Shown one piece after another: positions 28,142 through 42,151 of a stretch of 64,000 bases of DNA. This DNA is from an uncultured Prevotellaceae bacterium (lineage in GTDB: Bacteria > Bacteroidota > Bacteroidia > Bacteroidales > Bacteroidaceae): NCBI GenBank assembly GCA_947167515.1, contig CAMVIM010000007.1:62001-126000 (forward strand), written 5' to 3'. Made by a program: the position numbers and the translations under genes. Position 1 is the stretch's first letter, and each line of letters opens with the position of its first letter. The notes under the pieces were generated by a model, which was given only the letters and a program-made list of their open reading frames with translations, was not told the origin of the DNA and did no database searches.

Positions 28142-31100
28142 ATGAAACCGAAACTACTACTTGTCTTTTTGCTGTTGTTGGCAAATCTGACTGCGAAATC
28201 TTATGCCCTCGGTATTAACGTTGTGGAAGCACCTGCTCCAACCATCGAGTTTGCTGATGCCAATGTGAAAGCGCTCTGTATAGCTAATTGGGACACGGAT
28301 GGTGACGGAGAATTAAGTTATACAGAGGCGGCTGCCGTGACAGATCTTGGTACAGTATTCAAAAGCAATACACAAATTATATCGTTCAACGAGTTGCAAT
28401 ACTTTACAGGGCTGACATCTATTGGATACGGTGCTTTCTATTACTGCACCCGCTTGACATCGGTAACCATCCCCAACAGCGTAACATCTATAGGTCAGAA
28501 TGCTTTCCGTCAATGCAATCTAACTTCCGTGACCATTCCCAACAGCGTCACATCTATAGGCTATGAAGCTTTCTATGGTTGTTACTACTTGACATCGGTG
28601 ACCATCCCCAACAGCGTAACATCCATTAGCGATAGGGCTTTCATTTATTGCAGTAACCTGACATCGGTAACCATCCCCAACAGCGTAACATCAATTGGTG
28701 AACGAGCTTTCCAGAACTGCAGCGGTCTTACATCTGTGACCATTCCCAACAGCGTAACATCTATAGGCTATGAAGCTTTCAATGGGTGTAACCGCTTGAC
28801 ATCGGTGACCATCCCAAACAGCGTCACATCAATTGGCTATAATGCTTTCATGGACTGCAGCGACCTGACAACCGTCAACATTCCCAACAGCGTCACATCC
28901 ATTGGCAATGATGCTTTCAGTGGCTGCTATTTCGCACGCTACAACTTCGTCAACAATAGCACGCTAACAAGCTACGACAACTGGGGCGCCACTCTCTATG
29001 ATGAAGAAACTGAAGACGGATTAGTGATAAATGACAATACTGTGATAAAATGTAGAAAATGGGCAACATCGGTGATCATTCCCAACAGCGTAACATCAAT
29101 CGGAGTTGGTGCTTTCTCGCACTGCAGTGGTTTAACCTCCGTGATCATTCCCAACAGCGTAACATCCATTGGAGAGAGTGCTTTCTATGGATGCGTTTTC
29201 GCACGCTACAACTTCGTCAACAATAGCACGCTAACAAGCGACAACAACTGGGGCGCCACTCTATATGATGAAGAAACTGAAGACGGATTAGTGATAAATG
29301 ACCATACTGTGAGAAAATGTAGAGAATGGGCAACATCTGTGACCATTCCCAACAGCGTCACATCAATTGGTAATATGGCTTTCTATCACTGCTGCGGACT
29401 GACTTCGGTAACCATACCTAACAGCGTCACATCAATTGGGAACCAGGCTTTCCATTACTGCAGCGGACTGACTTCGGTGACCATACCTAACAGCGTCACA
29501 TCAATTGGGAACCAGGCTTTCTTTATCTGCAAAGGCTTGACTTCCGTAACCATCCCCAACAGCGTAATCTCCATCGGCAAAGAAGCTTTCTGCGGCTGCA
29601 TCGTCTTGACTTCCGTCGTTTCAGAGATTGAAGAGCCTTTCACTTTCAATTCATCTACATTCGAGGAAATTGCATCCACCTGCACCTTGACCGTTCCATA
29701 CGGTACCCGTGATGCTTACATTGCCAAGGGCTGGACAGAAAACGTGTTCAAGGGGGGCGTTGTGGAGGCATCTGCTCCCGCGCCTGAACCCACCGTGGCT
29801 GACCTAACTGCGGACATCTACCATCTGTGGGATGGAGCAGGGGCTGATGCCACGGTGACGAACCCCACACCTAGCTGTGCGATCAATCTGAATGTTGAGA
29901 CTGGCATTGTGTATGGCGACAACAGTGTTCGCGTTGACAGATATGCCGACCTTTCCGATTGGGACTACCTCACACTGACCGTGACATCGGGCAGTCCGCG
30001 CCTGTTCTTCAACAGTCATGGCGAGGAAGACCGTATCATTGTGTATGCCAACGATACGAAGTATGTGAAGAGCAACAAGAACGGCATCATCACTTACGAC
30101 CTCGCTGCCATCAAGGCCGATGCTGGCTACGTGCACCTGAACGCCATCAAGGCTAAGGCTCCGGACGCTCAAGTAATCATCGGCGAAATGAAACTCGCCA
30201 CGATAGAGGAATACGTGCCAGAGAATCCTGTGCGACGCTTCACAGATCTGACTACGGAAATGTTCTATCAATGGACGCTGGAGGAGCCAGTGGAAATCAT
30301 AAACCCGAATCTAGGCATACTCAATCTCTGCCAGAACGAGAACAACATTTACGGTGATGGGGGCGTGAATCCAGATCAGTTTGCAGACCTCGCGGAGTGG
30401 GACTATCTGACCATCGCCGCCACCAACGGCATGCCTCGTTTGCTCTTCAACCGCATCTATAACCCTGAGGCGGAATATGGCACAGAGGAATGGAAGGGTT
30501 CCGACAGGCTGGAGATTAACAGTACAGACAACAAATATGTGGTGAGTGCAGAGAACGGCGTCATCGTGTATGACCTCAAGGCCATCAGGGAAGACTACGA
30601 CGGCATGGTGCGCCTGCACGCCATCAAGGGCAAAGGCGGGCCCGCCACCGTCCACATCCTGAAGCTCGCGACCGTGGAGCCTGCCGAAATAGAGTGGAAC
30701 AACATCTATTTTGCTGACACCAACGTGAAGGCGCTCTGCGTGGACAACTGGGACACGAACGAAGATGGTGAACTGGACAAAGATGAGGCTGCCGCCGTGA
30801 CCAGCCTCGGCGAGGTGTTCAAGGGGAACAAAACCATCACATCGTTCAATGAGTTGCAGTACTTCACAGGGATAACTTCCATCGGAGAGAATGCATTCAA
30901 CGAGTGCAGCAATCTTGCCTCTGTTGTCATTCCGAATAGTGTAGCAACAATATCCCACGGAGCGTTTCAGGGAGCAGGCTTGACTGAAATGGTGATACCA
31001 AGTTCTATGAGAACTATAGAATATAATGCGTTTGCTTATTGCTCCAACCTGGCAACCGTCACTTTTGAGGAAGGAACGACTAATGTTGGTGGCAACGTCT

Positions 31101-33916
31101 TTGCTGAATGTCCTAATCTGGAGGAGGTTGTATTCCCTTCCACTCTCAGTTCCGGCAATATGCACAATGTATTTGGCAGCGTACCCAAATTGAGGCATGT
31201 TGTAATGCCTATTAGTGCACCACGATGCAAGCATGCGGAGCTGTTTCAAGGCGGTGACCTGAACCATTCTGTTCTCTTCACCATCCCTGAAGGGTCTGCC
31301 AGAATTTATCTCGAGAAAGGTTACTACAACATCTCCGACATGAGCGAACTGGCATGGATGAAGACGGAGTTTGAGGCTGAAGTCGCAAGTGTCGAGGCTC
31401 TGGCGACTGCCGAAGGCATCACAGCCAGTGCCGCAGCGAAGGAAGCATTGCAAACAGCCATCACGGCTGCACGCGCTGCCGTTGATGATGCCGATTCCTA
31501 TCTTGCCATCGGCACACAGATGGATGCTGTCAAGACGGCAGCCAAGACCTTCCTCGGCACTGCCACCATCACAGCAGGAACGGATGTGACCGCCATCGTG
31601 CGCAATCCACAGTTTGACCACATGGATTTTGGATGGAATGTGGAGATGGCCACCACTTGGCAAGGCAGCAGTGTTGGTTATCAGAAGGACAACGAACATA
31701 CGAATGGTGAGGTGAACATCCACAATTTCTTGGAGGCTTGGTGGAACGATGTCCGATTGGGAGATGGCAGACTCGTGCAGACCCTCACCAGTCTTCCTGC
31801 CGGCATCTATCGTCTGGAGGCGGATGCCATCGCCACATGGCAGGCGGACGCAAATGTGGAGGTGACGGGCGTGTCACTTCTCATGGGCAACAATACCAGA
31901 ACCATTGCCACCGCGAACGAGAAGCCGGAGCACTTCTCGGTGCTGCTCGAAAACACCGAGACCCAGGATGTGACCATCGGTGTGCAGTGGACCAACACGA
32001 CAGCCAACTGGGTGGCGATTGACAACTTCCGCCTCATCTATGAAGGAGCTGCTGCTGTTGTGCCTGCTGGCTCGGAACTGGTGAGCAGCGAGGATGACAC
32101 CTATTATATCTATAATGTGGGAACAGGCATGTATCTCAATGGCGGCAACGGTTATGGCACGCAAGCGGTGTTGGCAGAGGCGGGTTTGCCAGTGCGCATG
32201 ACGCAGGACGGCGATGGCTACTGGGAAATCTACTTCAGAGAAGGCAGCCGCCATGAACAAAAACTATACCGGAGTAATTACTATGATAGAATCTTAATAG
32301 ACTATGTGGAAGGGTGGGGTGCCAAACGTTGGATTATTACTCCTCAAGATGGCAATTACACCATCCAACTTGAAAGCGATCAAGGTACAAACGTTGTGCT
32401 CGGCAACAATCCCAATGGGCAGGATTATGACGTCAGTCAGAATGTCACGCTTGACACCCACATTGAGGTTATCCGTACAGACAATGCCGCCCACAATACG
32501 CTCTGGCAGTTCATCAAGGCAGAAGACTATGACCTGCTCATGGCGAAGCATCAGTTGCTTGCCGCCATCTTCCGCATGGAGCAGTCGGAGGTTGAAAATG
32601 AGGAACTGCTCAACAACTGCAAGGAGGTTTACTACAATGCCGAGGCAACGCTGCGGGAGGTCATCAGCGCCACCGCGTTGCTGAACTCGCAGATGGGCAT
32701 GCCACAAGATGGTCAGCCTGTCGATATGACTGTCCTCATCACCAATCCGCGTTTTGAACATAACACAGATGAAGGTTGGATTGGTGCCAAACTGGTGGAA
32801 AACGGTAATCCTAACAATACCCAACATGAGACACATGAGTTCTACCAGACCCCGTTCAACATGCATCAGAAGATAATGGGTGTGCCCAACGGCCTGTATC
32901 GGCTGAAGTATAAGGGCTACCATCGTCCAGGATCGGGGGAGAGTGCATGTGCAGACTATGTGGCAGGCACCAACAACGCCTCGGCTGTGGTCTATGCCAA
33001 TGGCGAGGAGAAGACCCTCAAGCACATCTACGAAGATGCAAGCGACACGTCGTATGGTGGTGGAGAGACAGAATACAATGGCAAATACGTCCCGAAGAGC
33101 CAGGCGGCTGCCCGCCAGTACTTCAATGCAGGGCTTTACGCAGACTATCTTGAGGTGGAGGTGACGGACAACATCCTCACCATTGGCGTGAAGAACACTG
33201 AGGAGATGGGCACAAATCACTGGGTAATCTTCAGCGACTTCGAGCTGGAACTGATGGAGAATGCTGAACAGATTTCCAACAGACTGACTGTGGAGAACAG
33301 CCAAGGCATCAGAGGCGGCAAGGCGACGATGAAGATCGCTCTGGAAAACGTGGCAGATGTTGCTGGCCTAGAATTCAAGGTGAAACTGCCAGAGGGCGTT
33401 AGCTTCGACCTTATCGGTGGCAATCCGAAGGTATCGAAGACCAGTCGCATGGCAGGTATGATTGTCACCCCATCCCTCATTGGTGACTGTGCGAAAGTGC
33501 TCATATTCCCCAGATTGCCGGAAGAAGAGGGTGCTCCCCTTCCTGTCATTACAGGCAATAGTGGCGTCATCGTTTCATTGGGACTCACCATTGGCAATAC
33601 TCTCGAATTGGGCGACTACGAACTGGAAGTGGAGGACATTATCATCGGCATGTCTGATGGTCTGATGATCAAGCAGACCAGTAGCGCCAGAGCGACACTC
33701 ACGCTGGTGAATGCCGGTCAAGGGGATGCCAACAAGGATAGCCATATCGATGTGGGTGATATTATCACCATCGCCAACCATATCCTGGGCAACGACCCTG
33801 CGAATTTTGACGCTGCGGCTGCCGATGTGAATGGGGATGGAGATATTAACGTGGGAGATATCATTGCTCTTGCCAACATCATCCTGAGGGGAGGCGAGGA
33901 ACTTGACCCGCAATGA
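28142..33916 (+). CDS. Large BspA/TpLRR-type leucine-rich-repeat surface protein with C-terminal cohesin-like and dockerin-like regions
   Basis: Signal peptide; many 'LTSVTIPNSVTSIGxxAFxxC' repeats; 'WDTDGDGELSYTEA' cap; C-term 'GDANKDSHIDVGDIITIANHILG...DVNGDGDINVGDIIALANIILRG' (paired Ca-binding dockerin-like motifs). Confidence 0.9.
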   Translation: MKPKLLLVFLLLLANLTAKSYALGINVVEAPAPTIEFADANVKALCIANWDTDGDGELSYTEAAAVTDLGTVFKSNTQIISFNELQYFTGLTSIGYGAFYYCTRLTSVTIPNSVTSIGQNAFRQCNLTSVTIPNSVTSIGYEAFYGCYYLTSVTIPNSVTSISDRAFIYCSNLTSVTIPNSVTSIGERAFQNCSGLTSVTIPNSVTSIGYEAFNGCNRLTSVTIPNSVTSIGYNAFMDCSDLTTVNIPNSVTSIGNDAFSGCYFARYNFVNNSTLTSYDNWGATLYDEETEDGLVINDNTVIKCRKWATSVIIPNSVTSIGVGAFSHCSGLTSVIIPNSVTSIGESAFYGCVFARYNFVNNSTLTSDNNWGATLYDEETEDGLVINDHTVRKCREWATSVTIPNSVTSIGNMAFYHCCGLTSVTIPNSVTSIGNQAFHYCSGLTSVTIPNSVTSIGNQAFFICKGLTSVTIPNSVISIGKEAFCGCIVLTSVVSEIEEPFTFNSSTFEEIASTCTLTVPYGTRDAYIAKGWTENVFKGGVVEASAPAPEPTVADLTADIYHLWDGAGADATVTNPTPSCAINLNVETGIVYGDNSVRVDRYADLSDWDYLTLTVTSGSPRLFFNSHGEEDRIIVYANDTKYVKSNKNGIITYDLAAIKADAGYVHLNAIKAKAPDAQVIIGEMKLATIEEYVPENPVRRFTDLTTEMFYQWTLEEPVEIINPNLGILNLCQNENNIYGDGGVNPDQFADLAEWDYLTIAATNGMPRLLFNRIYNPEAEYGTEEWKGSDRLEINSTDNKYVVSAENGVIVYDLKAIREDYDGMVRLHAIKGKGGPATVHILKLATVEPAEIEWNNIYFADTNVKALCVDNWDTNEDGELDKDEAAAVTSLGEVFKGNKTITSFNELQYFTGITSIGENAFNECSNLASVVIPNSVATISHGAFQGAGLTEMVIPSSMRTIEYNAFAYCSNLATVTFEEGTTNVGGNVFAECPNLEEVVFPSTLSSGNMHNVFGSVPKLRHVVMPISAPRCKHAELFQGGDLNHSVLFTIPEGSARIYLEKGYYNISDMSELAWMKTEFEAEVASVEALATAEGITASAAAKEALQTAITAARAAVDDADSYLAIGTQMDAVKTAAKTFLGTATITAGTDVTAIVRNPQFDHMDFGWNVEMATTWQGSSVGYQKDNEHTNGEVNIHNFLEAWWNDVRLGDGRLVQTLTSLPAGIYRLEADAIATWQADANVEVTGVSLLMGNNTRTIATANEKPEHFSVLLENTETQDVTIGVQWTNTTANWVAIDNFRLIYEGAAAVVPAGSELVSSEDDTYYIYNVGTGMYLNGGNGYGTQAVLAEAGLPVRMTQDGDGYWEIYFREGSRHEQKLYRSNYYDRILIDYVEGWGAKRWIITPQDGNYTIQLESDQGTNVVLGNNPNGQDYDVSQNVTLDTHIEVIRTDNAAHNTLWQFIKAEDYDLLMAKHQLLAAIFRMEQSEVENEELLNNCKEVYYNAEATLREVISATALLNSQMGMPQDGQPVDMTVLITNPRFEHNTDEGWIGAKLVENGNPNNTQHETHEFYQTPFNMHQKIMGVPNGLYRLKYKGYHRPGSGESACADYVAGTNNASAVVYANGEEKTLKHIYEDASDTSYGGGETEYNGKYVPKSQAAARQYFNAGLYADYLEVEVTDNILTIGVKNTEEMGTNHWVIFSDFELELMENAEQISNRLTVENSQGIRGGKATMKIALENVADVAGLEFKVKLPEGVSFDLIGGNPKVSKTSRMAGMIVTPSLIGDCAKVLIFPRLPEEEGAPLPVITGNSGVIVSLGLTIGNTLELGDYELEVEDIIIGMSDGLMIKQTSSARATLTLVNAGQGDANKDSHIDVGDIITIANHILGNDPANFDAAAADVNGDGDINVGDIIALANIILRGGEELDPQ
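28450..29630 (+). repeat. Tandem ~69-bp (23-aa) LRR-encoding repeats including a duplicated ~180-bp block
   Basis: Recurring 'accatccccaacagcgtaacatc'; block 'ttcgcacgctacaacttcgtcaacaatagcacgctaacaagc...' present at ~28930 and ~29196. Confidence 0.9.
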
Positions 33917-33963
33917 TTCCTATGCATACGCTAAACAATTATCAGAACATAAAAAAAAGACAA

Positions 33964-35187
33964 ATGAAAAAGTTTCTTTTTACAGTAATGGCTGCCCTCC
34001 TCGGAATGGGCAATGCTGTGGCGGACGAATATGTCGTAAGCGACATCGAGATTCCGCAAGGTGGCTCTGCCACCATTGAGATTGGGATGAACAATCCGGA
34101 CACAGAAAGTCGCGGTTTCCAGTTTGTCATGAGTTTTGACAAGGCTGTCACTGCTTCTCATCCTGTACGTGGAACGAGAATCAGCATGAAGGATCCAGAA
34201 CAAGACGAGTATCTGTACTCGCTGATGAGCCAATCAACGGAAGAAGGCTTCAAAGTGCTTGCCTACACCACGTCCACCGAATCCATCACAGGCACAAGTG
34301 GAACAGTTGTGAGTATCACCTTGACAGCCGATGAGAGTCTGGCTGTAGGCACAACGGTGACAGGTACACTCTCTGATTGCCTAATCGGTAACACGGCAGG
34401 TACGACCAATCAACTTGATGATGTCACCTTCAGCATTACCATTACAGAGAAGACCTACACGGTTCTTGACGAGACCTCTACAACTGCACCTGCTTCCAGC
34501 GATGGCAAGGTGGACATCAAAGTGCAACGCACCATCAAGGCGAACGAGTGGAGCACCATTTGCCTGCCTTTCGCAATGACAGGGACTCAAGTGAGAAGCG
34601 CCTTTGGCGAAGACGTGCAGCTGGCTAACTTCATTGATTATGAAGTCGAGGAGGATGATTATGAGGACATAACTGGACTGACCATTAACTTCGAAGAGGT
34701 TAATGCGAGTGCTGGCATGGAAGCAAACTATCCTTACCTCATCAAGGTTTCTTCTGAAATATCGGAGTTTGAGGTGAAAGCAACGATAGAGACAGACGAG
34801 GAGGCAGCCGTGGTTGAGTATGACAACGGCAAGACTGGAAGCCGTCGCAAGGTCTATGGTTCACTGATTGGCACCTACCATGCAGGGGATGCCATTCCTG
34901 CCAATGGGCTTTTCCTCAGCGGCAACCAGTTCTGGTACTCGACGGGTGAAACGAGAATCAAGGCGTTCCGTGCCTACTTCATGTTCGTTGATGTATTGAC
35001 AGAAGTGGAAGGTGCTTCGGCCAACATCCGCTACACCATTGTGGACGAGGCGACGGGCATTGCGGATGTGAAAAGCCCAATGGGCGCATCTGACGGCTGG
35101 TACACGCTGGACGGTCGCAGGCTGGACAGGAAGCCCGCGGAGAAGGGTGTGTACATCATGGACGGAAAAAAGGTCTCTATACGCTAA
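33964..35187 (+). CDS. Secreted protein with N-terminal cohesin-like region
   Basis: Signal 'MKKFLFTVMAALLGMGNAVA'; 'IEIPQGGSATIEIGMNNPDTESRGFQFVMSF'; C-term 'GWYTLDGRRLDRKPAEKGVYIMDGKKVSIR' (typical Prevotella secreted-protein tail). Confidence 0.75.
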   Translation: MKKFLFTVMAALLGMGNAVADEYVVSDIEIPQGGSATIEIGMNNPDTESRGFQFVMSFDKAVTASHPVRGTRISMKDPEQDEYLYSLMSQSTEEGFKVLAYTTSTESITGTSGTVVSITLTADESLAVGTTVTGTLSDCLIGNTAGTTNQLDDVTFSITITEKTYTVLDETSTTAPASSDGKVDIKVQRTIKANEWSTICLPFAMTGTQVRSAFGEDVQLANFIDYEVEEDDYEDITGLTINFEEVNASAGMEANYPYLIKVSSEISEFEVKATIETDEEAAVVEYDNGKTGSRRKVYGSLIGTYHAGDAIPANGLFLSGNQFWYSTGETRIKAFRAYFMFVDVLTEVEGASANIRYTIVDEATGIADVKSPMGASDGWYTLDGRRLDRKPAEKGVYIMDGKKVSIR

Positions 35188-35533: not shown

Positions 35534-35619
35534 TTTCTGTGCCTCAAAATCGGTGTGACTCACACCTATGATGGGGGTGTGACTCAGACCTATGGTAGGG
35601 GTGTGAGTCAGACCGATTT
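35534..35619. repeat. Palindromic/tandem REP-like element
   Basis: Arms AAATCGGTGTGACTCACACC (35547-35566) and GGTGTGAGTCAGACCGATTT (35600-35619), 19/20 complementary, with internal ~24-bp repeats 'tatgatgggggtgtgactcagacc'. Confidence 0.85.
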
Positions 35620-35758
35620 GGAGGTTGTGGCGTTGGTCTTTTTGTGCGGTTTCCGTTCATGCTGGATGGGATAGGGCAGTGGAATGAGTTTTGAGGTTTA
35701 TAAGCTGAAAAAATCGTTAATATTGGGAACATTTGCTGTGTGGAAAGGAAAAATTTTG

Positions 35759-35766
35759 TATCTTTG
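35759..35766 (+). promoter_or_regulatory. -7 element (TATCTTTG) of the CHASE2-FecR-CHAT operon
   Basis: TATCTTTG 8 bp before ATG at 35775; second ATG at 35787. Confidence 0.6.
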
Positions 35767-35774
35767 CCGACAAA

Positions 35775-37001
35775 ATGGTGAATAAGATGGTAAAAATCAA
35801 GCAAGCAGAAGCGAAAAAGGGGCTGAAAAGAATCCTTGATAGAAGCCATGTGTTCGTAGCCAGCATGGCGCTCATCATCCTTTGGATATGTTCGCTTGTG
35901 GCCATGAACATTTCCTTCTTTGACCCCATCCATCGAGCCACAAAAAACTTCTCACTCTCCGATGTATATTACCAAATTATGCAGGAGTCGGGAAACGTAC
36001 ACCGAAGCGAACTTATCACCATTGTGGATATGACCACTCTCTACGACCGAGGACGCATGGCGCAGGTCATCCACGAGGTGAACGAGTGCCAACCTGCCGT
36101 GGTGGGATTGGACGTGATGTTTGAAGGACTGCGAGGCGACACTGTGGGCAGTGAGCAGTTGGTAGAGGCCATCTGCGAGATTGAGACTCCGGTGGTGGCC
36201 TTCAAACTGAAGGAGGCTGACCCCGAAACGGGCAACTTCGTCACCGCCCGCCACTCTTTCTTCGCACCGATTGACGGCCTGCAAGAGGGCTATACTAACG
36301 TACAACACATTGACCTCGGAGGCATCATCCGCAACATGAGCACTTGGCATATCTTGGGCAGCGACACTGTCCACTCCCTCTCCTACTACCTGGCCAGCAA
36401 GTTCGCCCCCGATGTGCTGAACGAGGGGTTTCCCCAACGTCAACTCATTGACTATACCCCCACAGACTTCCCCGTCGTGCCCTACGATTCCATTCTGCAA
36501 AACCGCCACCTCATCGAGAACCGCATCGTCATGCTGGGAGCCATGAACGACGATGCCGACATGCACTACTCCCCCTTCGGCCGCACTGCTGGCACATGCA
36601 TTCAGGCCTATGCCGTGCAGACCCTGCTGGAGCATCATAACATCCGAGAACTGAACTTTGCATGGACACTACTCATCTCCTTCATCTTCATCGTGCTGAC
36701 CGACATACTGCAATGCGAAATCTCCTACCAAGCCAAACGCAGTAGAAGTGTCGTCGTGGGCTTCTTCTTCGACTCCAGTTTTGTGAAAAGTGCCATCAAC
36801 TTCCTCTGGATGGCTTTCCTTCTGTGGATAAACTTCCTCGTTTTCACCCAAGGAGACATCTACTTCAACCCCACCATCATGCTGATGGGCATTGTCCTTC
36901 AGGTGGAAGGCCGACTCTTCTATGTGTCAGCCATTGCCACCTATCGAGAAATCAAAACAAAAAAAATGAAAAACAAACATAAAAAACAACAAAAATCATG
37001 A
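35775..37001 (+). CDS. CHASE2 domain membrane protein lacking a cytoplasmic output domain
   Basis: N-term TM, CHASE2-like 'ITIVDMTTLYDRGRMAQVIHEVNECQPAVVGLDVMFEG', three C-terminal TM segments, short Lys-rich tail. Confidence 0.8.
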   Translation: MVNKMVKIKQAEAKKGLKRILDRSHVFVASMALIILWICSLVAMNISFFDPIHRATKNFSLSDVYYQIMQESGNVHRSELITIVDMTTLYDRGRMAQVIHEVNECQPAVVGLDVMFEGLRGDTVGSEQLVEAICEIETPVVAFKLKEADPETGNFVTARHSFFAPIDGLQEGYTNVQHIDLGGIIRNMSTWHILGSDTVHSLSYYLASKFAPDVLNEGFPQRQLIDYTPTDFPVVPYDSILQNRHLIENRIVMLGAMNDDADMHYSPFGRTAGTCIQAYAVQTLLEHHNIRELNFAWTLLISFIFIVLTDILQCEISYQAKRSRSVVVGFFFDSSFVKSAINFLWMAFLLWINFLVFTQGDIYFNPTIMLMGIVLQVEGRLFYVSAIATYREIKTKKMKNKHKKQQKS

Positions 37002-37468
37002 AACACTATTCTTTTATCTTACTTCTCCTCTTAGTGGGGACCTTCTTTTCTAACCTGAGGGCACAAGACCTCGTGGTTTATTCCGTCACTGGAACTGTCA
37101 AACTGATGAAAGGCAGAACCTCTTCCAACATCACCATCCGACAGAAACTGAACAGAGAAAGCATCGTCAACCTTGGTGCCGGAGCCAAACTGGTGCTCAT
37201 TGACCAAACGGAGAAAAAACAGTACACCCTCTCCTCCACAGGCACATTCTCTATCGGGAAACTCATTGCCAGTTCCCAAAGTTCGGCCAAGTCTTTGTCT
37301 GACATGTACTTGTCTTATCTGATGAAGCAAATCAACGGCAAGGGAGTCTTGACCTCCAAGACAGCTATCGATGACACCTATGCCTCCATCGAGCGTGACA
37401 CTAACGACTCCCTCTTCTCGGAAGCAGAACCTCAGATTGATACAAATATCAACACGACCCCACAGTAA
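36998..37468 (+). CDS. Exported FecR-like domain protein
   Basis: Signal peptide; 'YSVTGTVKLMKGRTSSNITIRQKLNRESIVNLGAGAKLVLIDQTEKKQYTLS'; ATGA overlap with upstream gene. Confidence 0.6.
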   Translation: MKHYSFILLLLLVGTFFSNLRAQDLVVYSVTGTVKLMKGRTSSNITIRQKLNRESIVNLGAGAKLVLIDQTEKKQYTLSSTGTFSIGKLIASSQSSAKSLSDMYLSYLMKQINGKGVLTSKTAIDDTYASIERDTNDSLFSEAEPQIDTNINTTPQ

Positions 37469-37474
37469 AATTCC

Positions 37475-40400
37475 ATGAAATTCTTCCTCCGCCCTCTCCT
37501 TTTCCTCCTTCTCCTTCCCTTCGAAGCCCTCTTCCCTTGTGCCAACCTTCACGCCCAGAGCGAGGTGGAACAATTGGCACAACAAGTGATGTCGGCACGT
37601 GCAAAAGGAGACTTCGAAAAGGCCATCCAACTGAACAGCAAGGAGATAGAGCTAAGAAGGAAAGACCCTTTTTCGTCCAAACTCTACTTAGCCAACAGCA
37701 TCCACACTCAGGCTGCCAACTATGCTGGTCTGCAACGCTACGACCAAGCCATCGACACCGAAAAGGAGGCGCTGGAACTCTTCCACAAAACCGACAAGAA
37801 GAAACAGTTCGTAGGTGTCTGCCTTAGCAATCTGGCTGCCTACCACTTCTCGCGAGGTCAGAGCGGCGACTTTGCACTGGCTGAGACCTATGCCCAAGAG
37901 GCCCTGAAATATCAGGAGAGTGGAAGCGAAAACTATGTGAACACCCTCAATCTACTTGTTGTCTATCAGACGGCAGCCGGACATGCCATTCAAGCCAATG
38001 ACCTGAGCAAGCAACTCTTCAAGCAAGGCAAACGTGTCTATGGCCTCAACACGGTCAAGTATGCTGAAATTCTGGCCAATCAGTCTGTCAAACTGGCTAA
38101 CCTCGGCAACTTTGCCGAAGCCATCAAATATGCTGAAGAAAGCATCTCCATCTATGAGGAGTCGGGCGACACGCTCAACCTCTCCTTTGCCCGCCTGCTC
38201 ACCAACACTGCCAACTACTACACCAATAAGGAAGACTACGCCACCAGCGTAAGGAAACTGGAGCGCGCACGCGGCATCCTGTTGACCACCGAAGGCGAGA
38301 GCGGGCTTAACTACATCCAATGCACAGGCGAACTCTCGGCTGCCTACAACCATCTGGGCGACCTGCAGAAGGCTGACGACCTGGCCAATGCAGCCCAAAA
38401 CGGCATCACAACCGGTGACAATCGCATTACCCTGCTGAAAGCCCAGTCGCTGAAGAAACAGGCCGAAGTCTTCGCCACTAACGGCAACTACAAAGTGGCC
38501 ATCAGTCTGCAAAATGCCGTGCTGAACATCTATGCCCAATATGCCGACTCGCTGGGCATGGCGAAGGCTTATGACAGGCTCTCCAACTACTACTACCATG
38601 ACAACAACGTGTACAAGGCTATCGAATGCTGCCAGAAGGCCATCGACATCAACTCGCGCAACAGCGGCAAGCAGACCGATCTGGCACAGGCATACAATAG
38701 CATGTCCATCTACCACTACCAGCAAAACGACAATAAGTCGGCACTCAACCATGCTCTTAAGGCCGTGCAGATGTACACTATAGAAGGCGACACCACCAGT
38801 TCCTTCTATGCCAAGGCACTCACCAACGCCGCCCTCTACCACTATGCCTTGGGCCATCTGGACGATGCCGTGCGCGATGCCCTCCACTCCTACCAGTTGC
38901 TTTGCAACGTGTTGGGCAAAGACCATCCCGACAATGTGACCAATCTCTTCAATCTGGCTCACTACTACTATTCCAAAGGAGACGAGCAGAAGCACCAAGA
39001 ATATCTGCACAAGGCCATGCAGTTACAGTCAAATCTGGTAAAGAGCAACTTCTCCCACATGACCACCGCAGGCCGCGAAATGTACTGGAACAGCAAGCGT
39101 TTTGTCTTTTCCGTCGCTCCCACCTACGCCTACCTGTGCGCTGACAACGACTCTCTACTGGTCGATGCCTACAACGCACAACTCTTCACCAAGGGCATCC
39201 TGCTCAATTCCGAAATCGACTTCAAGGCGCTCCTCATGCAGTCGGGCGACTCCACCCTACTAGAGGAGTACATGGAACTGACCGACCTGAACAACCAGAT
39301 AGCCGAACTCTACAACTCATCAACTCAGGAGATGAACGCCAGCAACCACTCGGACGAAATTGAACGCTTGAAACGGAAAGCCACTACATTGGAGCGCGAC
39401 TTGATGCGCCACAGCAAGGAGTATGGCGACTACACCGCCAACATGACCCTCACGGCACAAGACATTGCCGCAGCACTCAAAGAGGGCGATGTGGCCGTAG
39501 AACTGTTTGAAATAGAGGTGGATGGAGGGAAGGCCTATTATGCCATGTATCTGAAGAAGGACTGGCAGGCACCCCGACTGGTCAAACTCTTCAGTTATCT
39601 CGATTTACGAGTCTTACAGCACAACGGCAAAGACTTCTACAAACTCATAGCAGACCCCGATGGCATCAACTACCTCTTCTCCAAGAGCGAAGTGGGACAA
39701 ATGGTGTGGAACCCCCTCATCCAAAGTTGGGGCGACGACGTGAAGAACGTCTTCTTCTCGCCCTCTGGACTCTTCTACCAGTGGGGCATCGAATACCTGC
39801 AAATGAACGATGGGCAGCGAATAGGAGAGAAATACAACATGCGGAGACTCTCCTCCACCAAACTGCTGGCACAAACACCTGAGAACAATGCACTGAAGAA
39901 TGCCGCAGTCTTCGGCGGACTAGACTACGACATGCCTGTCGAACTGATGGCCGAACTGCACCAAGGCATCAACAACTACACCAACAAATTGGTGTCGGCC
40001 ATGGAAAGCGAAGACCTGGCCATACAACGCTCCCTTTTCGACCTCGACAACACAGTAGCCGACAGTCTCTCCATGCGCGGAAGTGCTAAGTATCTGGAAG
40101 GTACACTCAAGGAGGCTGAGAGCATTGCCGAACAACTGATGCAGAGCAACATAGAGACCGAACTCTACACCCACGAGATGGGCATAGAAGAGAACTTCAA
40201 GTCACTGAACGGAAAGCGGCTGTCGCTCATCCACATCGCCACCCACGGCTTCAGCCTGAGTGAAAGCAGTTCTGGACGAAGGATGCTGGCCTCAATTCTG
40301 GGCGACACATGGAACATATCGGCCAGCGATGCCAACCTCAACTACTCTGGCCTGCTCTTTTCAGGAGCTAACAATGCGCTCAACAGAATCAAAGTGCCCG

Positions 40401-40753
40401 AAGGTGTGGAGAACGGCATCCTCACCTCGCGCGAAATCTCGATGCTCGACCTGCGAGGCACCGACATGATCGTACTCTCGGCTTGTCAGACAGGCTTGGG
40501 CGACATCAAGGAAGATGGAGTATTCGGTCTGCAACGTGGCTTCAAGAAAGCAGGCGCACAGACTCTGCTGATGAGCCTCTGGAGTGTGAACGACCAGGCC
40601 ACACAACTCATGATGATTAGTTTCTACAAGGCACTTATGGAGGGAAAATCGCGCCACGAAGCCTTCAGAGAGGCACAAAACCGAGTGCGCTCCAACCCCA
40701 AGTTCAGCACCCCCTTCTTCTGGGCTTCCTTCATCATGCTCGATGACTTGTAA
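37475..40753 (+). CDS. Exported TPR-repeat / CHAT-domain (caspase-like) protein
   Basis: Signal-like N-term 'MKFFLRPLLFLLLLPFEALFPCANLHAQ'; many TPRs; CHAT motifs 'IHIATHGFS' and 'VLSACQTGLGDI...LMSLWSVND'. Confidence 0.92.
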   Translation: MKFFLRPLLFLLLLPFEALFPCANLHAQSEVEQLAQQVMSARAKGDFEKAIQLNSKEIELRRKDPFSSKLYLANSIHTQAANYAGLQRYDQAIDTEKEALELFHKTDKKKQFVGVCLSNLAAYHFSRGQSGDFALAETYAQEALKYQESGSENYVNTLNLLVVYQTAAGHAIQANDLSKQLFKQGKRVYGLNTVKYAEILANQSVKLANLGNFAEAIKYAEESISIYEESGDTLNLSFARLLTNTANYYTNKEDYATSVRKLERARGILLTTEGESGLNYIQCTGELSAAYNHLGDLQKADDLANAAQNGITTGDNRITLLKAQSLKKQAEVFATNGNYKVAISLQNAVLNIYAQYADSLGMAKAYDRLSNYYYHDNNVYKAIECCQKAIDINSRNSGKQTDLAQAYNSMSIYHYQQNDNKSALNHALKAVQMYTIEGDTTSSFYAKALTNAALYHYALGHLDDAVRDALHSYQLLCNVLGKDHPDNVTNLFNLAHYYYSKGDEQKHQEYLHKAMQLQSNLVKSNFSHMTTAGREMYWNSKRFVFSVAPTYAYLCADNDSLLVDAYNAQLFTKGILLNSEIDFKALLMQSGDSTLLEEYMELTDLNNQIAELYNSSTQEMNASNHSDEIERLKRKATTLERDLMRHSKEYGDYTANMTLTAQDIAAALKEGDVAVELFEIEVDGGKAYYAMYLKKDWQAPRLVKLFSYLDLRVLQHNGKDFYKLIADPDGINYLFSKSEVGQMVWNPLIQSWGDDVKNVFFSPSGLFYQWGIEYLQMNDGQRIGEKYNMRRLSSTKLLAQTPENNALKNAAVFGGLDYDMPVELMAELHQGINNYTNKLVSAMESEDLAIQRSLFDLDNTVADSLSMRGSAKYLEGTLKEAESIAEQLMQSNIETELYTHEMGIEENFKSLNGKRLSLIHIATHGFSLSESSSGRRMLASILGDTWNISASDANLNYSGLLFSGANNALNRIKVPEGVENGILTSREISMLDLRGTDMIVLSACQTGLGDIKEDGVFGLQRGFKKAGAQTLLMSLWSVNDQATQLMMISFYKALMEGKSRHEAFREAQNRVRSNPKFSTPFFWASFIMLDDL

Positions 40754-40765
40754 CACCCTAAAATC

Positions 40766-40798
40766 GATGTGACTCAGACCGATTTCGAGGCACAGAAA
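40766..40798. repeat. REP-like element related in inverted orientation to 35534-35562
   Basis: Reverse complement TTTCTGTGCCTCGAAATCGGTCTGAGTCA vs TTTCTGTGCCTCAAAATCGGTGTGACTCA (26/29). Confidence 0.8.
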
Positions 40799-40873: not shown

Positions 40874-42058
40874 TTACTTGCCCTCAATGATAACACAACG
40901 GTTCTTGTCGTTATCGTTAGCAAATGGTTGCACGGTGTCGCCATAAGAGTTCACGTTCATCTGGCTAGCTGGAACACCTTTCTCCAACAGATAGGATGCT
41001 ACCTTGTCGGCACGCTGCTTAGCATAGTTAGCGTTCAACTTAGCATTGCCAGTACCTGCATCTGCATAGCCACTGATGCCGATGGTCTTGTTGGGGTACT
41101 TCTTGCACCACGCTACCACCTTGTCTAGAAGTATCTCTTCGTTCACATCACTCTCGCGGATGGCATAGAAAATGGTTTCCTTTACGGGTTCTTCCACCAC
41201 AACGGGCTTGGGTGCAGTGGCTGATGCCACTTCTGTTTGGTTGGTTGTCTGATAGACAGGTGTTGCGGTCACAGCCACAGGTGTAGGCTTCGGAGCAGGC
41301 TTGTGACCAAACTTGTAAGTGATGGATAGTTGACCTGTCATCATCCAGTCGTCAGAGTTGGTGTATTTGCTGTTGAAGCGGTCGTCGAGCGAATTAAAAT
41401 CAACTTCAGCACCCACACTCCAGTGCTTGGCAATGTTGACATCGGCCAACAGACCCAGACGCAGATTGTGGCTGAGCAGGCTGTGGCGCGGAGTCTGGTT
41501 CTGTCCCCATGCATTGGAGATGTCGCTTTCCACCACATATTGCGAAGTGATGCGCTCAAAATCCTTGTTGTGCCATGCATAGTTGAGACCAACACCACCA
41601 ATGAGGTAGAGGTCGAAAGGACGATGCACCTTTTTCGTGAAGATGTTGAAAATGTTGACCATCAGGTCAATGTTGGTGTTGATGTAATTATAGTCATATT
41701 TCAACACTTTGGTGCCATAAGAGCGTTCCTCATTATTAGTGTCCTTCTTATAATACTTATCAAAACCTCCCTTTGACTTCCAGCCATTCACATGGATGCG
41801 GGCACCCACAACAGGTGAGAACATGTCACCCACTGCAATGCTGAAGGTAGGGGAAAGAAGTTTCCAACAACTCACATCAGTGAAAGTGGTACTCATACCG
41901 CCCTGCACCTGAATGAAACCATAAGGATAAGGCTTGTAACCCAGTTCTTGCGACTCGACCAGATAGCCACCCTCTATGCTGCTATCCACCTGCGCAACAG
42001 CTACCACGCTACTAAGTCCCATGACAACAACGGATAAAATTTTTTTAATATTACGCAT
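40874..42058 (-). CDS. OmpA family outer-membrane protein (beta barrel + peptidoglycan-binding domain)
   Basis: 'KTIGISGYADAGTGNAKLNANYAKQRADKVASYLLEKGV'; start at MRNIKK (42058) preferred. Confidence 0.9.
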   Translation of the reverse strand: MRNIKKILSVVVMGLSSVVAVAQVDSSIEGGYLVESQELGYKPYPYGFIQVQGGMSTTFTDVSCWKLLSPTFSIAVGDMFSPVVGARIHVNGWKSKGGFDKYYKKDTNNEERSYGTKVLKYDYNYINTNIDLMVNIFNIFTKKVHRPFDLYLIGGVGLNYAWHNKDFERITSQYVVESDISNAWGQNQTPRHSLLSHNLRLGLLADVNIAKHWSVGAEVDFNSLDDRFNSKYTNSDDWMMTGQLSITYKFGHKPAPKPTPVAVTATPVYQTTNQTEVASATAPKPVVVEEPVKETIFYAIRESDVNEEILLDKVVAWCKKYPNKTIGISGYADAGTGNAKLNANYAKQRADKVASYLLEKGVPASQMNVNSYGDTVQPFANDNDKNRCVIIEGK

Positions 42059-42151
42059 AAGATTTGTGGTTAAGTAAAACATTTTTTTAACATTCGGCGG
42101 TAAAATTAGTTAATATTCCCCAAACGAACAAAAGAAAAAGGAAATATTTCG

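Follow-up and report, generated by a model that had tools for sequence, protein, structure and literature searches.

The window, by which we mean the whole 64,000-nucleotide stretch of DNA analysed here, contains an operon of three co-directional genes that encode, in order, a CHASE2 membrane protein, a small exported protein that we refer to as F, and a large TPR-CHAT protein (Table 1). The end of the CHASE2 frame overlaps the start of F as ATGA, and a gap of 6 bp separates F from the TPR-CHAT gene; coordinates and spacing agree with the tight arrangement described in the original prediction, which had been made from the sequence alone. It thus combines a membrane sensor for which no signalling output is known with two proteins predicted to be exported, a small partner and a caspase-like protease. 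The three genes had also been placed under one -7 element, and a -7-like sequence, TATCTTTG, is indeed present upstream, but its nearest TTTG lies 23 nt further upstream, which is slightly long for a Bacteroidota promoter when judged by the spacing rule and the -7 consensus, and for this reason we rate the box as weak. If it is taken as the -7 element, then the ATG at 35787 is the likelier start of the CHASE2 gene than the one at 35775.

Table 1. Features of the CHASE2-F-CHAT operon and its convergent neighbour, in window coordinates.
Feature	Position	Strand	Basis
Candidate Bacteroidota -7 box of the operon, TATCTTTG	35759..35766	+	Sequence; weak
CHASE2 membrane protein, 404 aa	35787..37001	+	PF05226, E 6.6e-20, sole domain; alternative ORF starts 35733 or 35775
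CHASE2 sensor domain, predicted periplasmic	36015..36695	+	Pfam match to residues 77-303, inside the acidic loop
F, small predicted exported partner of CHASE2 (156 aa)	36998..37468	+	Signal-like leader, beta-rich core
Predicted exported TPR-CHAT peptidase, 1092 aa	37475..40753	+	PF12770, E 1.2e-51; TPRs; structural model; fold matches
Signal-like leader of the CHAT protein, predicted cleavage near LHA/QS	37475..37555	+	Hydropathy and motif
CHAT peptidase domain, residues 740-1089	39692..40741	+	Pfam match
Predicted catalytic His924 codon	40244..40246	+	Motif IHIATHGF; invariant in 20/20 linked orthologues
Predicted catalytic Cys1004 codon	40484..40486	+	Motif LSACQTG; invariant in 20/20 linked orthologues
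OmpA-family outer-membrane protein	40874..42082	-	PF00691; convergent to the operon

The CHASE2 domain is matched well above threshold (72 bits against a cut-off of 26.3). Hydropathy predicts one N-terminal helix at residues 22-40, followed by an acidic loop of 248 residues in which the sensor domain lies; C-terminal to the loop come two or more helices, beginning with one at residues 289-307, and a lysine-rich tail without a domain. This topology agrees with the extracytoplasmic sensor and transmembrane helices originally proposed. The proposed lack of a kinase or cyclase output is likewise borne out, in that a Pfam scan of the protein gave no second domain of this or any other output type, and the tail extends only about 50 residues past the last clear helix, with a maximum of 71 aa among the short relatives. 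In a sample of the class Bacteroidia, CHASE2 proteins are nearly always stand-alone, with frames of about 400 aa. In the case of the other classes of the phylum, most of the CHASE2 frames listed are 650-900 aa long, though some stand-alone frames occur there too, and all five that were examined bear a guanylate cyclase or a sigma-54 activator domain. CHASE2 is present in 41 of 395 genomes of the class sample and in 50 of 399 of the family sample, and because this distribution is patchy, its function is probably accessory.

The second gene product had been described as FecR-like, a description that failed every profile test. F has no Pfam family match, and the FecR profile PF04773 does not find it even when E-values up to 10 are allowed; the same profile gave no match anywhere in the window's own genome, and hhalign of F with 31 Bacteroidia FecR domains gave a probability of about 1%, similar to that of an unrelated control. 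By profile comparison, F is a separate CHASE2-partner family, distinct from FecR. Its predicted signal peptide did hold up, since the leader is hydrophobic and signal-like, and 74 of 78 F relatives pass the same hydropathy test. The model of its core is of high confidence and shows a beta-rich domain, with no significant match in the PDB (the best is 5ix9, E 0.15). The family has a short branch of about 150 aa and a long branch of about 300 aa that are homologous to one another (98.9% probability, E 1.6e-17), and at 66 of 82 loci a member is no more than two genes away from CHASE2. One genome from a different class has a single 750-aa frame (L172 of G955) that fuses CHASE2 (residues 1-401), an extra transmembrane helix (408-426) and an F domain (412-580), and the additional helix would put the F domain in the periplasm.

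The TPR-CHAT protein retains the His and Cys motifs noted in the original prediction, and the two residues are invariant even in the most distant of the 20 linked orthologues, which have only 23-28% overall identity to the window protein. The hydrophobic leader that had been noted was also seen by hydropathy, and a similar leader occurs near the N-terminus of the called frame in all 20 CHASE2-linked CHAT proteins of the Bacteroidaceae. An AlphaFold2 model (mean pLDDT 82) contains a long TPR superhelix and a stretch of low confidence just past the Cys. Structure prediction had been proposed as a check, and a foldseek search of the PDB with the whole model recovered human separase and Csx29, the TPR-CHAT protein of Craspase, with E-values of about 1e-9 to 1e-12; the overall TM-scores of these matches are low because the TPR arm is flexible. 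On the basis of the model, the protein has a caspase/separase-type fold, and with its conserved His and Cys it is a putative peptidase.

About 20 Bacteroidaceae genomes have the three genes in this order, and the synteny in relatives on which the original prediction depended is thereby borne out. A locus from a sheep-rumen member of the family (L151) matches the arrangement down to the convergent OmpA-family gene; its CHASE2 protein is 71% identical, and for every gene compared between it and the window pN is far below pS. A scan of the genome collection found two close relatives only. A second operon with the same gene order lies on another contig of the window's own genome (L009:7844-13064, contig C9), and it is strongly diverged, its CHAT protein being 26% identical to that of the window. 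In a tree of 47 CHAT proteins from the family, 18 of the linked ones form one clade (support 98/94), and those of L009, L125, L150 and L225 fall outside it. The tree hints that CHASE2 loci acquired CHAT independently more than once, but a single origin is not rejected by an AU test (p 0.07) and we have not adopted the multiple-origin reading. Searches of plasmids gave no match with CHASE2 and distant matches only with CHAT, and the one such region that was inspected is without an annotated CHASE2 neighbour.

The operon is flanked by copies of a 24-nt tandem repeat unit, GGTGTGACTCASACCTATGNTNGG (window positions 35534-35624 and 40756-40798), and 43-nt arms of this repeat form an inverted repeat (81%) around the three genes. 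Across the genome there are 146 copies of the core motif and 0 of a reversed control, which indicates a dispersed repeat family and not a cassette boundary; with the locus also syntenic with L151, we rejected the idea that the operon is a mobile cassette. Upstream, the span 28142-35187 holds two genes that overlap by 4 bp; one encodes a 1924-aa LRR protein of the BspA type that bears a type I dockerin, and the other a 424-aa protein whose cohesin match is borderline (E 5e-5, falling short of the Pfam cut-off by 0.1 bit), suggesting the possibility of a cohesin-dockerin pair in a Bacteroidaceae genome.

The association of CHASE2 with caspase-fold proteins involves two families. With identical searches used for the numerator and the background, a CHAT or C14 gene was found within 10 kb at 39 of 72 CHASE2 loci, against about 1.6 expected; CHAT accounts for 24 of the 72 (0.87 expected) and C14 for 15 (0.74 expected). 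The C14 counts are lower bounds, because at least one genuine C14 gene of the window's genome escaped the search, and since the loci share descent the P values overstate the enrichment and the effect size should be given more weight. The arrangement is nevertheless far beyond chance. In other lineages the place of CHAT is often filled by genes for exported C14 caspases (e.g. L068, L049, L120 and L129), and hydropathy finds signal-like leaders on nearly all of the complete C14 proteins at CHASE2 loci. In another family of the same class (f11; L053, L059 and L069), CHASE2 and F are divergent, and a CHAT protein of 1400-1500 aa is encoded nearby, its gene coming after a DUF5723-type gene (assigned by Pfam in L059 and by sequence clustering in L053 and L069). 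Neither CHAT nor C14 lies nearby at 33 of the 72 loci overall, or at 12 of the 44 loci of the family by the same count, so CHASE2 and F can exist without a linked protease. These many unaccompanied loci aside, nothing speaks for chance neighbours without joint function, which we consider extremely improbable given the overlapping genes, the order kept in many genomes, the CHASE2-F fusion and the strong enrichment of caspase-fold genes.

We consider it slightly more likely than not that the operon encodes a sensor-to-protease module of the cell envelope, in which a periplasmic sensor governs a caspase-fold enzyme. CHASE2, which carries no cytoplasmic output domain, would span the inner membrane and expose its sensor domain to the periplasm, and F would bind it, a contact suggested because the pairing of the two is near-constant and one natural fusion exists. 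The exported TPR-CHAT protein would act as a cysteine peptidase and would use its TPR superhelix to dock on the CHASE2/F complex, to capture substrate, or for both. A ligand or a state of the envelope sensed by CHASE2/F would then release or activate the peptidase, which would cleave an envelope protein. No means of controlling a peptidase is visible on F or CHASE2. None of the findings that had been named as refuting the original prediction was obtained, in that the genes are syntenic in relatives, the CHAT protein has a signal-like leader by hydropathy, and its His and Cys are retained in sequence. We infer, as did the original prediction, that proteolysis is the output of this sensor, and the view is strengthened because exported C14 caspases fill the CHAT place in other lineages. 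More tentatively, and with a probability that we would put short of even, the same principle may extend through the class Bacteroidia, with CHASE2 receptors that lack an output controlling exported caspase-fold peptidases, CHAT and C14 being interchangeable, and thereby converting envelope signals to periplasmic proteolysis.

The adjoining OmpA-family protein is a possible partner or substrate of the module. Homologues adjoin 17 of the 82 CHASE2 loci and lie directly upstream of CHASE2 in many relatives. This neighbour, together with the long TPR superhelix of the CHAT model, can also be accommodated by a scaffold for envelope morphogenesis, in which CHASE2/F forms an inner-membrane anchor, the TPR-CHAT and OmpA-like proteins bridge to peptidoglycan and the outer membrane, and peptidase activity is secondary or serves envelope assembly. 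A precedent may be found in HetF, a cyanobacterial CHAT protein that binds FtsI and is a divisome component (PMC8406250). HetF itself, however, requires its putative active site (PMC8406250), and the invariant His and Cys and the replacement of CHAT by C14 elsewhere point to catalysis as the common property, so that we regard the scaffold as an unlikely, if respectable, alternative to the sensor-to-protease module.

CHAT genes also occur in other settings. In the window's own genome, one leader-bearing CHAT protein is encoded beside TIR/FGE-sulfatase domain proteins (L010:7234-13836) and another beside TIR and RyR domain proteins (L011:1774-6635), both loci resembling predicted conflict systems even though the CHAT protein there seems to be exported. 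A different recurrent CHAT module is found within the family (L012:4632-11280, L208, L209, L211, L212, L218, L219 and L224), in which the CHAT protein, again with a leader, is accompanied by a small C14 caspase (about 295 aa) and by two small genes; by eye these two resemble a sigma/anti-sigma pair, although this has no Pfam support in L012.

The company of these own-genome CHAT genes, with their TIR, RyR and FGE-sulfatase neighbours, and the patchy distribution of CHASE2 would suit a role in conflict or self-killing, with the exported peptidase as an effector released upon envelope attack. Such a role nonetheless seems improbable for the operon described here, as PADLOC defence-system models gave no match to any of its three proteins, the main linked CHAT proteins form one slowly changing clade, and the chromosomal place is kept in L151, unlike that of typical defence islands. 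A cytoplasmic output might instead be reached indirectly, either because CHAT cleaves an anti-sigma factor or other membrane regulator and so alters transcription, or because CHASE2 signals via an unlinked cytoplasmic partner, with CHAT no more than a modulator. The sigma/anti-sigma-like pair that accompanies CHAT and C14 elsewhere in the family hints in this direction, as perhaps does a foldseek match of the CHAT model to DdvA, a transmembrane anti-sigma factor. At the CHASE2-F-CHAT operons examined, however, no sigma/anti-sigma pair is apparent alongside, and the CHASE2 tail is short, leaving the indirect route, to our minds, about as unlikely as the scaffold.

Several known systems bear partial resemblance to the proposed sensor-to-protease module. 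The CHASE2 adenylate cyclase clusters of Campylobacterota encode a FecR-domain protein, a TPR protein and a phosphodiesterase (PMC9239204), and like the operon in the window they group a CHASE2 sensor with a TPR protein and an exported small-domain partner. Their CHASE2 is fused to the cyclase, whereas in the window CHASE2 is without an output, its partner does not match FecR by profile, and a predicted exported peptidase is the TPR protein. In the BiofilmReg operon of Burkholderia, a CHASE2 histidine kinase is paired with a LysM-FecR protein (PMC5192318), so that a CHASE2 receptor again shares an operon with a periplasmic partner bearing a signal peptide, but its output is phosphorylation via a response regulator. 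CHASE2 is also linked to a caspase-fold peptidase in a metacaspase-CHASE2 fusion protein of Trichodesmium erythraeum (PMC3501461), in that case in one polypeptide with the peptidase predicted to be cytoplasmic, in contrast to the separate genes and predicted exported peptidase of the window. The TPR superhelix and the CHAT fold with His and Cys are shared with the Craspase TPR-CHAT protein Csx29 (e.g. 7zoq, 8eey and 7y84), though Csx29 is a cytoplasmic partner of the Cas7-11 CRISPR effector, and the CHAT protein here is predicted to be exported and occurs with CHASE2 and F. Inspection of the ORFs near the operon showed no Cas-like gene, and those flanking genes that were scanned belong to other families. 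Finally, HetF of Anabaena is similar in being a membrane- or envelope-associated CHAT/TPR protein and a putative protease, but it has its own transmembrane segment and binds FtsI, and the available part of the report describes no CHASE2 or F partner for it (PMC8406250).

Within the open-access literature we found no paper on an exported CHAT or C14 peptidase in an operon with a CHASE2 protein that lacks an output. As judged from these comparisons, the system is a variant, not known before, of the CHASE2/FecR/TPR clusters, with which it shares the exported partner and the TPR protein, its partner being non-FecR and a cyclase or kinase being absent.

CHASE2 is usually regarded as the part of a kinase or cyclase that receives the signal, and the bacterial relatives of caspases have mostly been treated as cytoplasmic enzymes of death or defence. 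The operon of this gut-type bacterium suggests that some bacteria may convert an external signal straight into protein cleavage in the envelope, and not into phosphorylation or a second messenger. If this is correct, the conserved pairing of CHASE2 receptors that lack an output and exported peptidases of the CHAT or C14 family would amount to a caspase-like pathway of the periplasm, which would provide a function for orphan CHASE2 receptors and for many of the exported CHAT proteins of Bacteroidota, and would offer a small, genetically tractable system for asking what CHASE2 senses.
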